Source: Nitrospira sp. (GTDB lineage Bacteria > Nitrospirota > Nitrospiria > Nitrospirales > Nitrospiraceae). From it: a DNA stretch of 64,000 bases. The stretch covers positions 242,432 through 306,431 of the forward strand of contig JALDRG010000005.1 of assembly GCA_031315995.1 (NCBI GenBank), written 5' to 3'. Positions 1-61,194 of this stretch are shown one piece after another. How positions within the stretch are numbered: the first letter of the stretch is position 1; each line of letters begins with the position of its first letter. The notes under the pieces are model-generated. The model did no database searches. It saw only the letters and a program-made list of their open reading frames with translations, and was not told the DNA's origin. A program made the translations under genes and the position numbers.

Positions 1-1485
1 GTCCCAGTCGAGGAGATAGCTGGTTCGATTGGCGCCGTCGGCATAGACCGGGGCCCACTCTTCCGTTCCAACCTCATCGAATTGCAAGCGGAGGAGGGCG
101 TAAAACAGGTCCTGCAGGTCCTGCTCATCGGTGATTTCCAGCGTCGGTCGATATTCCTTTCGCAAACGAAGTTGTCGAGCCACCAGGTGGAATCTGGCAC
201 ACATTCTCCGGAGGATGTCGAGCGTTGTGGTCTCTGATTGGCTGCTATTCATGCTCGAATCCCCGGGCGCTGCGAGCACCGTCGCCGTTGTGGGTGGTGT
301 GACGACGGGTGCGACGAGCGAAACTGGTTTGGGCTCAATGCCGGAAGCAGCAGGAAGAGGTGCGTCCGGGATAGACAGCATAGGTCGAACCTCGCGAAGG
401 CCGGGGAGATCGTTGTGCTGCTGTTTTTCCCCTGCAGGCGCGGGTGTGGATGGATTCGACGCAGGCGCAACGGTGGTGACTAGGGCCGGTGAGGCCGCCG
501 GCGCGTCTATCGAATTCGAAATCGATTGGACTGGTGGAGGCGGCTCAATGGGAGACGCGGGTAGATTAGCAGGCCCCTGCGTCACTCTCGGTGGAGGAGG
601 GATGGTTCCCGATGGAACGGGTGTCCCTAGTGGTGCCGTTGTCGGACTTGCGGCTGTGGTGACCACCGGACGCACTGTCACGTCTGGTAGTGGTGCGGCA
701 TTCGTGGATGGAGGGGAAAGCGCAGGTACTTCGGGCAACGAGGGTGCGGGACTCTGGGGGGGCACGATTTTCTCAACCGGGACCACGGCGGCATTCGCCG
801 CCACGGGGCTCAGTGGAAGAGATGACGGTGGCTGCGGCGCGCGCTGGATTGATGTTTCGCGAACCGGTTGAGATGCAGTCTCCGGCGCAGGCGGCATTGG
901 TGCAGTCGTCGCGGCGACCGGTGCCGTTAGGACGATCGGAGCCATGGCCTGTGTGATCTGGCTGAGGTTCGTCGTCATGGCTACCGAGACGGTCATCGGT
1001 GTGCTGGTCATGGTCACAGCGGCAAGGGGGGGGGCGTTCTGAGCGTTGGGGCGTGCGATAGGATCGGAAGGCTGGATCGGGGAAACCGGCGTTCGCATGG
1101 AGCGATCAGGGGCCGTTGGTGGCGGCGCTGGTGGTTCGTTTGGTTTGAGGCCTAGGAGGTCGGCTTTCTGGTTCTCCAGGGCGATAATCAAGTCCTTGAC
1201 CAGCGTTGTGCTCTGTGCGGACTCCGTACGACTGCCGATTCGGAGCTTGTGATTCTTATGCGCTTGATACTCCGGTGATTTTTCGCCGAACAGCCGCCGA
1301 ATCGTTTCACGGAAAGAGAGCTCGGTTCTCGCTCGGACCGCTTCACGGTAGGGGAATCCATCCTGGCTGAGGTCGTCGATTTGTGTGCTCAGTTCGCGCA
1401 GCGTGGTGATGCCGCGGTTGAGTTCTTCTACGGGATTCGGTTTCGATCGACTGCGCTGCGGTTCGCTGGCTTTTGCTCGTGCCAT
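1..1485 (-). CDS. Large protein with Pro/Ala/Thr-rich linker and nuclease-like C-terminal domain (3' end outside window)
   Basis: The ORF track misses this gene because its frame runs off the window edge. From the ATG at 1485 I read 495 codons on the minus strand with no stop. Residues 1-110 are charged and probably helical (EELNRGITTLRELSTQ). Residues ~115-415 form a low-complexity linker rich in Pro, Ala, Thr and Val. From ~420 a folded domain begins (RLRKEYRPTLEITDEQDLQD, then FYALLRLQFDEV). That segment resembles the N-terminal part of PD-(D/E)XK nuclease-like domains with the pattern RPTLEI.DE.DVQDLLHALLRL, often found in stand-alone or fused restriction-like proteins. The catalytic part would lie beyond the edge, so activity cannot be judged. 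No strong Shine-Dalgarno precedes the ATG. The plus-strand ORF at 131-871 is its shadow. The gene is well supported; the family call is tentative. Confidence 0.7.
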   Translation of the reverse strand, partial: MARAKASEPQRSRSKPNPVEELNRGITTLRELSTQIDDLSQDGFPYREAVRARTELSFRETIRRLFGEKSPEYQAHKNHKLRIGSRTESAQSTTLVKDLIIALENQKADLLGLKPNEPPAPPPTAPDRSMRTPVSPIQPSDPIARPNAQNAPPLAAVTMTSTPMTVSVAMTTNLSQITQAMAPIVLTAPVAATTAPMPPAPETASQPVRETSIQRAPQPPSSLPLSPVAANAAVVPVEKIVPPQSPAPSLPEVPALSPPSTNAAPLPDVTVRPVVTTAASPTTAPLGTPVPSGTIPPPPRVTQGPANLPASPIEPPPPVQSISNSIDAPAASPALVTTVAPASNPSTPAPAGEKQQHNDLPGLREVRPMLSIPDAPLPAASGIEPKPVSLVAPVVTPPTTATVLAAPGDSSMNSSQSETTTLDILRRMCARFHLVARQLRLRKEYRPTLEITDEQDLQDLFYALLRLQFDEVGTEEWAPVYADGANRTSYLLDWD

Positions 1486-21984: not shown

Positions 21985-22011
21985 AATTGTTCCTGCATAG
22001 AACATACCCCC

Positions 22012-22040
22012 TTGACAATGGCGCGCGTCGCAAATAAAAT
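22012..22040 (+). promoter_or_regulatory. Sigma-70-type promoter of the tRNA-tuf operon
   Basis: A perfect -35 TTGACA and a -10 TAAAAT are separated by 17 nt. The expected start near 22047 leaves a leader of about 175 nt before tRNA-Tyr, so this promoter plausibly drives tRNA-Tyr, tRNA-Gly, tRNA-Thr and tuf. Confidence 0.7.
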
Positions 22041-24054: not shown

Positions 24055-24204
24055 ATGCGAGATATCATTGACTTGGCCTGCACGGTCTGCAAGCAGCGAA
24101 ATTATTCGACCCGCAAGAACAAAAAGAACGATCCGGATCGTTTGGAGCGAAATAAGTTCTGTAAGTTCTGCCGGAAACACATCGCTCACAAGGAAGTGAA
24201 GTAA
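24055..24204 (+). CDS. rpmG: 50S ribosomal protein L33, zinc-binding form
   Basis: 49 residues, too short for the ORF track. The sequence opens [19 protein letters not shown] and has two CxxC pairs (C9, C12 and C36, C39), so this is the zinc-binding (C+) L33. It ends KHIAHKEVK. It lies between tuf and tRNA-Trp, as usual ahead of secE-nusG. The Shine-Dalgarno near the ATG is weak (GGA), while a perfect GGAGGTGATC lies 41 nt farther upstream. Confidence 0.95.
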
Positions 24205-34500: not shown

Positions 34501-35762
34501 TCGCGATTGTGGACGACAGTGGTCGAGAGCGCGAGAAATACCCCGTTGTCTATGGCGCTAAAATCAAGGTGAAGGATGGCGATCGGGTTGAGGTTGCTCA
34601 GAAGTTGGTCGAATGGGACCCCTATTCGTTGACCATTCTTACGGAGACCGGCGGAAAGGTTGCCTACGGCGACATTCTCGAAGGCGTCACGATGAAGGAA
34701 GAGTTCGACGAGGTGACGGGGTTGTCGCGGAAGGTCATCATCGAGCAGAGCGGGGCGACGCTTCGACCGCGCGTATCGATTAAGGATGACAGCGGAAAGA
34801 CGGCCAAGGTCTCGGGGTCTGGAGCGCCGGTCGCCAGATATCTGTTGCCGGTCGGTGCCCACATTTTCGTTGAGAAGGGGGCCACAGTGCATCCCGGCGA
34901 TGTCTTGGCCAAGATTCCGCGCGAAACGACGAAGACCAAGGACATCACCGGAGGTCTCCCGCGAGTCGCAGAACTGTTCGAGGCTAGGAAGCCCAAAGAG
35001 CAGGCGGTGATCAGCGAGATCGATGGCGAGGTGTCATACGGCGGGTTTGTGAAGGGAATGCGAAAGGTGTTGGTCGACAATAAGATGGGCGACGTGAAAG
35101 AGTACTTCATCCCGAAGGGTAAGCACGTCAATGTTCATGAAGGCGACTGGGTTCGAGCCGGTGAGCCACTGATGGACGGTTCGGCCAACCCCCACGATAT
35201 TTTGGATGTGTTGGGGCCGAAGGAGTTGCAGAAATACCTGGTCGACGAAGTGCAGGACGTCTATCGCCTGCAAGGTGTGTCCATCAACGACAAGCATATC
35301 GAAATTATTGTGCGGCAGATGCTCCGCAAGGTCAGAATCGAGGACCCTGGAGACACGTCATTCCTACCGGGCAGTCAGGTGAGTAAAGGGCTGTTTGATG
35401 TAGAGAATCAGCGAGTTCTCGAGAAGGATGGGAAGCCGGCCCTTGGGAAACCGGTCTTGCTGGGTATCACCAAGGCTGCGTTGACCACGGATAGCTTCAT
35501 ATCCGCGGCATCGTTCCAAGAGACGACGCGTGTGTTGACTGAAGCGGCCATCAATGGTCGAGAAGATAATCTCCTGGGCTTGAAGGAGAACGTGATTGTT
35601 GGACGACTCATTCCTGCGGGTAGTGGCTTTGAGGAGTATCGCGAAACCTTTGTGGCCAGTGCCAAGGCTCCTGGAGAGTTATCGGGCGCTATGCCTCAGC
35701 CGGTAGCGGTAGGGCAGTTACCTGCGGGTTCTCCTGGGTCTGAACCTGAGAATAATGGATGA
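31575..35762 (+). CDS. rpoC: DNA-directed RNA polymerase subunit beta-prime
   Basis: 1395 residues. The start is a TTG with a strong AAGGAGG at proper spacing. The N-terminal zinc ribbon has its four Cys ([20 protein letters not shown]). The absolutely conserved Mg-binding loop [12 protein letters not shown] is at about 459-470. The bridge helix and trigger-loop region include [14 protein letters not shown] near 930. A second zinc site ([16 protein letters not shown]) is present. The C-terminal tail is Pro/Gly/Glu rich. It is followed by a strong promoter for the next operon, so rpoBC transcription probably overlaps that promoter. Confidence 0.99.
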
Positions 35763-35768
35763 AAAGAA

Positions 35769-35808
35769 CAAGAACGTTCTTGACATAAGTAGTACACATC
35801 TCTATAAT
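35769..35808 (+). promoter_or_regulatory. Consensus sigma-70 promoter of the str operon with an overlapping palindrome
   Basis: TTGACA (35780-35785) and TATAAT (35803-35808) match the consensus exactly with a 17-nt spacer. A perfect 14-bp palindrome, CAAGAACGTTCTTG (35769-35782), covers the first three bases of the -35 box. It has no loop, so it is a DNA site rather than a terminator hairpin, and could be an operator. The promoter should drive rpsL, rpsG, fusA and perhaps tuf. Confidence 0.8.
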
Positions 35809-35871
35809 CCGACGGCTTCGCTCATGAGCATTTTTGAGCAACTGCCCGCTTTTCAAGAAAGAGTATAGTGC

Positions 35872-36243
35872 ATGCCAACGATTAATCAGCTGGTGAGAAA
35901 AGGCCGGAAACTCGTCAAGTCAAAGACCAAGAGTCCGGCGCTCAAGCGCTGTCCCCAGAAGCGCGGGGTGTGTCTCCGTGTTTATACCACGACTCCCAAG
36001 AAGCCTAACTCCGCGCTCCGCAAGGTGGCTCGTGTTCGGTTGACGAATGGGATGGAGGTTACGACGTACATTCCTGGCGTCGGACACAATCTTCAGGAGC
36101 ACTCGATCGTGTTGGTTCGTGGCGGTCGAGTCAAGGACTTGCCTGGTGTGCGCTATCACATTGTTCGTGGCTCGCTGGATGCGGTTGGCGTTGCTGACCG
36201 GAAGCAGGCACGGTCGAAGTATGGAGCGAAGCGGCCTAAGTAG
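35872..36243 (+). CDS. rpsL: 30S ribosomal protein S12
   Basis: 123 residues, normal length. Landmarks are the N-terminal [13 protein letters not shown], the decoding-site loop [20 protein letters not shown] with both lysines intact, and the second loop [20 protein letters not shown] with K87 and D88. The usual streptomycin-resistance positions are therefore wild type. Starts 64 nt after the promoter -10. First gene of the str operon, followed by rpsG after a hairpin-containing gap. Confidence 0.99.
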
Positions 36244-36255
36244 TAATTGATTGTA

Positions 36256-36277
36256 TCATTGCGCGTGCGTGCAATGA
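36256..36277 (+). promoter_or_regulatory. Hairpin in the rpsL-rpsG intergenic region
   Basis: A perfect 7-bp stem (TCATTGC with GCAATGA, 8-nt loop) is followed a few bases later by a T-rich tract (TTTTATTTTAT). In E. coli, S7 binds the rpsL-rpsG intergenic RNA to repress its own synthesis; the position here suggests a comparable site, by inference. Confidence 0.4.
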
Positions 36278-36304
36278 AAACCGATTTTATTTTATAGGAC
36301 AACG

Positions 36305-60341: not shown

Positions 60342-61194
60342 TCTCGTCGTGATCAGCGGTCTTTCCGGATCCGGAAAGAGCCATGCGTTGAAAGCCTTTG
60401 AAGACGCGGGCTACTTCTGCGTCGACAATCTTCCCCCAGCCCTCCTGCCGACTTTCGTCGAATTGTGTCATCAGCAAGGCGGTGAGATTAAGAATGTCGC
60501 GCTTGGGATCGATATTCGCGAGCGGGTATTTTTCGGGGACTTGGCGAAGGTCTTAGGCGAGCTGAAGGCGCAGGGACATGCCCTGCAACTTGTGTTCTTG
60601 GAAGCACGCGAGGAGGTGCTCGTTCGCCGGTTTTCAGAAAGTCGTCGCCCGCATCCTTTGTTGCCCCATATGCCGGTCGTGGAGGGCGTGCGGTTTGAGC
60701 GGGAGCGGCTCAGCGAGCTGCGGAAGCATGCCGACCGAGTAATCGACACCTCCAGCATTACGGTGCATGAACTGCGGGAGTTGCTGATCAGGCAATTTCG
60801 GCAGGAAACAGCCGCCCGCCGTATGACCATCTCCCTGGTCACGTTTGGTTACAAGTTCGGCGTGCCCTATGATATCGATCTTCTCTTCGACGTTCGCTTC
60901 ATTCGAAATCCCTTCTTCGTACCGGAGCTCAAAGCCTTGACCGGGGAGGATGCCCGAGTTCAGCAGTACGTATTCGGGGACCCGACAGCGGAGCAATTCC
61001 TCGAACATCTGGAAGGTTTGTTTGCTTTCCTGATTCCCCTGTATGAGCGGGATCAACGGAGTTACCTCAGTATAGGCATCGGTTGTACAGGAGGGCGGCA
61101 TCGGTCGGTGACCCTGGCGGTACGCCTTCAGGAACGATTCGCCGCCCTCGGTTATGATGTATCCGTGACCCACCGGGATCTGCAAAAACCCTAG
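60328..61194 (+). CDS. rapZ: RapZ/YvcJ-family nucleotide-binding protein
   Basis: 288 residues from the ATG at 60328; the track start at 60295 (TTG) overlaps hpf further. The P-loop GLSGSGKSHALKAFEDAGYF is near the start, followed by DNLPPALLPTF. The C-terminal domain ends with GIGCTGGRHRSVTLAVRLQE, the RapZ hallmark. In E. coli RapZ guides RNase E to the small RNA GlmZ to control glucosamine-6-phosphate synthesis; here that role is unknown. It is usually linked to rpoN and nitrogen phosphotransferase genes, and it overlaps hpf by 14 nt. Confidence 0.96.
   Translation: MAALNLVVISGLSGSGKSHALKAFEDAGYFCVDNLPPALLPTFVELCHQQGGEIKNVALGIDIRERVFFGDLAKVLGELKAQGHALQLVFLEAREEVLVRRFSESRRPHPLLPHMPVVEGVRFERERLSELRKHADRVIDTSSITVHELRELLIRQFRQETAARRMTISLVTFGYKFGVPYDIDLLFDVRFIRNPFFVPELKALTGEDARVQQYVFGDPTAEQFLEHLEGLFAFLIPLYERDQRSYLSIGIGCTGGRHRSVTLAVRLQERFAALGYDVSVTHRDLQKP

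Follow-up and report, generated by a model that had tools for sequence, protein, structure and literature searches.

A conserved AAGAA sequence next to the -35 element of the str operon promoter in Nitrospira

The operators of class II activators and of repressors overlap the -35 element and take the form of an inverted repeat centred near position -40. When a dimer reads such an operator, both arms are expected to be under like constraint. Promoters of ribosomal protein genes can also be controlled at the DNA level by other means: in Escherichia coli they are reportedly regulated directly by ppGpp and DksA, as Lemke et al. are said to have found in 2011. Promoters inhibited by ppGpp/DksA typically have G+C-rich discriminators (PMC9304144). 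Two further systems involve the C-terminal domain of the RNA polymerase alpha subunit (alpha-CTD). The proximal UP-element subsite, an alpha-CTD site of E. coli rrnB P1, reads AAAAAARNR at -46 to -38 (PMC2801614). The Spx/alpha-CTD element of the Bacillus subtilis trxB and nfrA promoters is the shorter AGCA at -45 to -42 (PMC2801614).

The str promoter of Nitrospira shares features with each of these systems. It lies in the window, by which we mean the whole 64-kb stretch of DNA analysed, where the gene order reads rpoB-rpoC-rpsL-rpsG-fusA-tuf-S10 cluster; the names rpsL (S12), rpsG (S7), fusA (EF-G) and tuf were assigned from the protein sequences. The palindrome CAAGAACGTTCTTG sits on a TTGACA-17-TATAAT promoter exactly as the original prediction had described it, and shares three bases with the -35 hexamer (Table 1). 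From the rpoC stop codon (35760-35762) it is 17 nt to TTGACA. The hexamers are those of a sigma-70-type promoter and their spacing is within the usual 16-18 nt. Because only six perfect TTGACA-16..18-TATAAT promoters occur in the 3.88-Mb assembly, and none in a reversed control, the str promoter is real and not a product of chance.

Table 1. Coordinates of features at the rpoC-rpsL junction and downstream, numbered in the window
Feature	Position	Strand	Observation or basis
Perfect 14-bp palindrome CAAGAACGTTCTTG	35769..35782	.	complete only here and in the nearest relative, G003
AAGAA, left arm of palindrome	35770..35774	+	about -45 to -41 relative to the inferred start; unchanged across 22 Nitrospira genomes
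CG, centre of palindrome	35775..35776	+	variable, 4 changes per column
TTC, right arm outside the -35	35777..35779	+	C invariant; 2 changes in the first T column, 1 in the second
-35 hexamer TTGACA	35780..35785	+	invariant in 22 congeners; present in 7/7 non-congener loci inspected
Spacer, 17 nt	35786..35802	+	sequence reading and congener column counts
-10 hexamer TATAAT	35803..35808	+	genome promoter scan and congener comparison
G+C-rich discriminator/start region CCGACGGCTTCGC (CCGACGGCTTCGCTC to 35823)	35809..35821	+	nearly invariant in the genus, largely retained in other genera
rpsL (S12), first gene downstream of promoter	35872..36243	+	followed by rpsG (S7), fusA (EF-G) and tuf
rpsL-rpsG spacer with small hairpin (CATTGCGCG..GTGCAATG)	36244..36304	+	compensatory changes

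Transcription probably starts near 35815. The discriminator and first transcribed bases (35809-35823) are almost as invariant within the genus as the -10, and no second copy of the discriminator CCGNCGGCTTYGC with fewer than three mismatches exists elsewhere in the genome. The CCGACGG that follows TATAAT is G+C-rich, as is typical of ppGpp/DksA-inhibited promoters, and its place between the -10 and the start of a ribosomal protein promoter suggests a likeness to the rRNA and ribosomal protein promoters under that control. The original prediction called DNA-level control atypical for a str operon; given the direct ppGpp/DksA regulation described for E. coli, the word is too strong.

To compare relatives, upstream regions were located through the S12 protein in 22 congeners, counting the own genome, and at seven other loci of the family. 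No S12 or str promoter was returned from seven of the 29 congener genomes (G009, G011, G016 and four more), some of them nearly complete, probably owing to masked stretches. Changes per column are parsimony counts on a tree of the flanking coding DNA. In all 22 congeners and at the seven other loci, a G+C-rich, CCGnCGGCTT-like stretch comes after TTGACA-17-TATAAT. The palindrome itself is another matter. The exact 14-mer is retained in only two of the 22 congeners, our own genome and its closest relative; the original prediction had named absence from close relatives as what would count against it, and for the exact form that is what we find. The genome scan that it proposed, for copies at other promoters, was equally discouraging: the 14-mer is single-copy, and with up to two mismatches there are 11 matching places against 19 in a reversed control. 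We have dropped the exact palindrome as a repeated operator.

One arm of the palindrome behaves very differently. Counted from the -35, columns -10 to -6 (AAGAA) show 0, 0, 0, 0 and 0 changes among the 22 congeners, and the CTTGACA columns show none throughout. Columns -3 and -2 change two times and once, the two central columns four times each, and columns -11 to -22 two to five times each. Third codon positions of rpsL change 4.3 times on average; if the AAGAA columns evolved as these do, five invariant columns would arise with a probability of roughly 4e-6. Since AAGAA shows zero changes against this 4.3, it appears to be under selection within Nitrospira as a real, genus-level upstream promoter element. 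In other genera the promoters persist and the left arm is mostly gone; at rpsL it is absent with the promoter intact. Twenty of the 29 congener genomes contain the longer sequence AAGAANNTTCTTGACA, each of them once and, where the str promoter could be located, in that promoter; we therefore rejected it as a box common to several promoters.

Could the palindrome and the conservation of its left arm be without specific function, an A-rich sequence downstream of rpoC having met a common -35 flank to give a palindrome by chance? A perfect 14-bp palindrome alone is unremarkable: the window contains eight of this length or longer against 4.2 expected. The rarity of the exact 14-mer among congeners also suits a chance origin, as does the region from -19 to -11, which is merely purine-rich. 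We nonetheless consider this explanation quite unlikely in view of the five successive invariant columns across 22 genomes, and of the independent conservation of the element at two further promoters, described below. The window also contains longer perfect palindromes, one of 20 bp (TCTTTCCGGATCCGGAAAGA, 60360-60379) and one of 16 bp (24127-24142).

The sequence CAAGAANNTTCTTG occurs exactly three times in the own genome, where we estimate from base composition that about 0.1-0.2 copies are expected. All three copies lie directly upstream of genes in the same promoter register. One is at the rpsL str promoter, the second (on L273) is upstream of an FKBP-type isomerase (Pfam FKBP_C), and the third (on L276) precedes the gene for a small secreted protein that belongs to no recognised family and looks cupredoxin-like by eye. 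At the FKBP and secreted-protein sites the TTG that closes the right arm also begins a plausible -35 (TTGAGC and TTGCTT), with a conserved -10-like sequence 16-18 nt away, and both sites are retained in most congeners. AAGAANNTTCTTG thus recurs in register at two further conserved promoters, and the recurrence and conservation in relatives expected of an operator are found there. These promoters were re-read from protein-anchored loci, which lowers selection bias, with a few rows still taken from pattern matches. In the AAGAA columns the FKBP promoter shows 0, 1, 1, 1 and 0 changes and the secreted-protein promoter 2, 1, 1, 0 and 0, against mostly 3-9 in their upstream flanks. In the 0.86 Mb of the own genome used for composition tests (sequence stretches plus the window), AAGAA-N5-TTG with a -10 occurs four times at the str-type spacing versus about 0.5 times at other spacings. 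The secreted-protein promoter (L276 1240-1300; L372-L392) shows family-wide conservation that includes the spacer, CTTGCTTCC...CCCTATGCTATAAG, and is unusually strong for a promoter.

The set of such sites seems small. When AAGAANNTTCTT and its one-mismatch sites were clustered by orthology over several genomes, only the FKBP and secreted-protein sites were widely conserved and non-coding, and among four genomes there were no further conserved non-coding one-mismatch sites. With just these two widely conserved non-coding clusters, and most of the remaining AAGAANNTTCTT sites inside open frames, we rejected the remainder as regulon members. A PilZ-domain gene is preceded by AAGAATAATCTTG, 17 nt and TAGACT, and its promoter is a possible fourth carrier of the element.

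These additional copies also bear on a role in RNA. Read-through from rpoC would transcribe the palindrome, and by eye there is no obvious terminator between rpoC and rpsL, so the site might serve as a hairpin, or as a place of processing, in the read-through RNA from rpoBC. Lacking a loop, however, a perfect palindrome would yield no more than a short A-U-rich stem; it is not followed by a U-run, and the conserved FKBP and secreted-protein copies stand in promoter register rather than between the genes of an operon. Such a role strikes us as most unlikely. An Rfam scan of the 64-kb window returned tRNAs only, and no noteworthy consensus structure was found in the rpsL leader. Control of the mRNA may have its site further downstream: the small hairpin in the rpsL-rpsG spacer, which shows compensatory changes in most congeners, is a candidate S7-type control site. 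G001, G007 and G004 lack it or have a different one; in the first two the spacer is replaced by a longer, different one.

Is the conserved sequence a symmetric operator? Over the three promoters, columns -3 and -2, the part of the right arm outside the -35, change 13 times (rpsL 2+1, FKBP 7+2, secreted protein 0+1), whereas their left partners at -6 and -7 change once; the two arms are not under equal constraint. The pair -6/-3 is broken in two of 22 rpsL promoters (G017 and G004) and in seven of 22 FKBP promoters. These breaks are never compensated, as they should be in an operator, and the left arm stays unchanged. The outer pair is free at rpsL (3/22), and the innermost pair is free there, while its bases mostly fail to pair in the FKBP and secreted-protein promoters. 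The inner G-C and A-T pairs, on the other hand, are retained in 17-22 of the 21-22 genomes per promoter, leaving AAGA-N4-TCTT nearly intact at all three, and most rpsL and secreted-protein promoters retain the T's at -3 and -2, which the -35 does not need. Because the arms change unequally and breaks go uncompensated, an asymmetric word AAGAA (about -45 to -41) with a -35 flank TCTTG fits better than a symmetric operator. Of the regulatory palindrome originally proposed, the consensus promoter stands, as does conservation beyond the core at the palindrome's position; the exact palindrome does not, with its outer and central pairs free, its right-arm breaks uncompensated and its left arm lost in other genera.

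A dimeric protein might still bind here. A genus-specific transcription factor could recognise the sequence AAGA-N4-TCTT (AAGAA-N2-TTCTT in its full form), which has its centre near -40. It would act either as a class II activator or as a repressor covering the -35, and would govern str together with a very small regulon: the FKBP isomerase, the small secreted protein and perhaps the PilZ protein. The restriction of CAAGAANNTTCTTG to three promoters in one register, its persistence at two of them in most congeners, the intact inner pairs and the PilZ-gene site would all follow. We regard this as possible but doubtful, given the unequal arms, the broken and uncompensated -6/-3 pair of the FKBP promoters, the dearth of further conserved sites and the loss of the left arm at most promoters in other genera; moreover, no candidate regulator was found. 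It seems rather unlikely that a dimeric regulator specific to Nitrospira covers the -35 at three or four promoters and couples ribosome synthesis, through the str operon, to a secreted protein, an FKBP foldase and a PilZ protein. The str site resembles class II and repressor operators in having an inverted repeat centred near -40, but differs in its unequally conserved, uncompensated arms and in having no known regulator.

We favour, with a probability of about one half, a strong sigma-70 promoter with a promoter-intrinsic, asymmetric proximal upstream element, AAGAA, read by alpha-CTD or by a factor docked on it; the palindrome is unlikely to be a classical repressor site. A housekeeping sigma-70 promoter with consensus -35 and -10 elements would drive the str operon. 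Because -45 to -41 falls within -46 to -38, AAGAA would lie in the proximal alpha-CTD subsite, where that domain, or a docked factor, contacts DNA, and the contact would most likely raise promoter strength. The G+C-rich discriminator is of a kind usual in growth-regulated promoters, and the promoter may be under stringent control. The palindrome would exist because the -35 flank TTCTTG complements AAGAA; in the own species an outer base and a central base pair as well, by coincidence.

Like the proximal UP subsite, the AAGAA element is A-rich, lies directly upstream of the -35 and belongs to a strong promoter that serves the translation machinery. Unlike it, the element is only AAGAA, present genus-wide with an invariant G that counts against a plain A-tract UP element, which would not need one. 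Nor is a general A-rich UP element seen in the own genome: at 28 promoter-like sites in the 0.86 Mb, positions -10 to -6 are not generally enriched in A. The Spx element offers a second parallel, being a short asymmetric word at -45 read by an alpha-CTD-docked factor, although the word here is AAGAA and not AGCA. A literature search for AAGAACGTTCTT found nothing. Against the reading that we favour, the recurrence of AAGAANNTTCTTG and the preferred AAGAA-N5-TTG spacing are also predicted by a specific regulator. In its favour, strong promoters here can carry conserved upstream sequences of their own: a control promoter, that of tRNA/secE-nusG-rplK (22012; window 21985-22040), reads TTGACA-17-TAAAAT and has its own upstream element, GTTCnTGCATAGAACATACCC, unlike that of rpsL and conserved in the genus as judged from eight genomes. 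Because this promoter has a different element, a conserved upstream sequence does not in itself point to the palindrome seen at rpsL.

Nitrospira is a nitrite-oxidising bacterium whose promoters have, to our knowledge, hardly been studied. The AAGAA element provides a clean, conserved and testable handle on how ribosome synthesis is set at the DNA level in a slow-growing nitrifier. Were it the site of a regulator, it would tie the str operon to envelope proteins in an unusual way; were it a contact of RNA polymerase, it would represent a lineage-specific form of upstream element.
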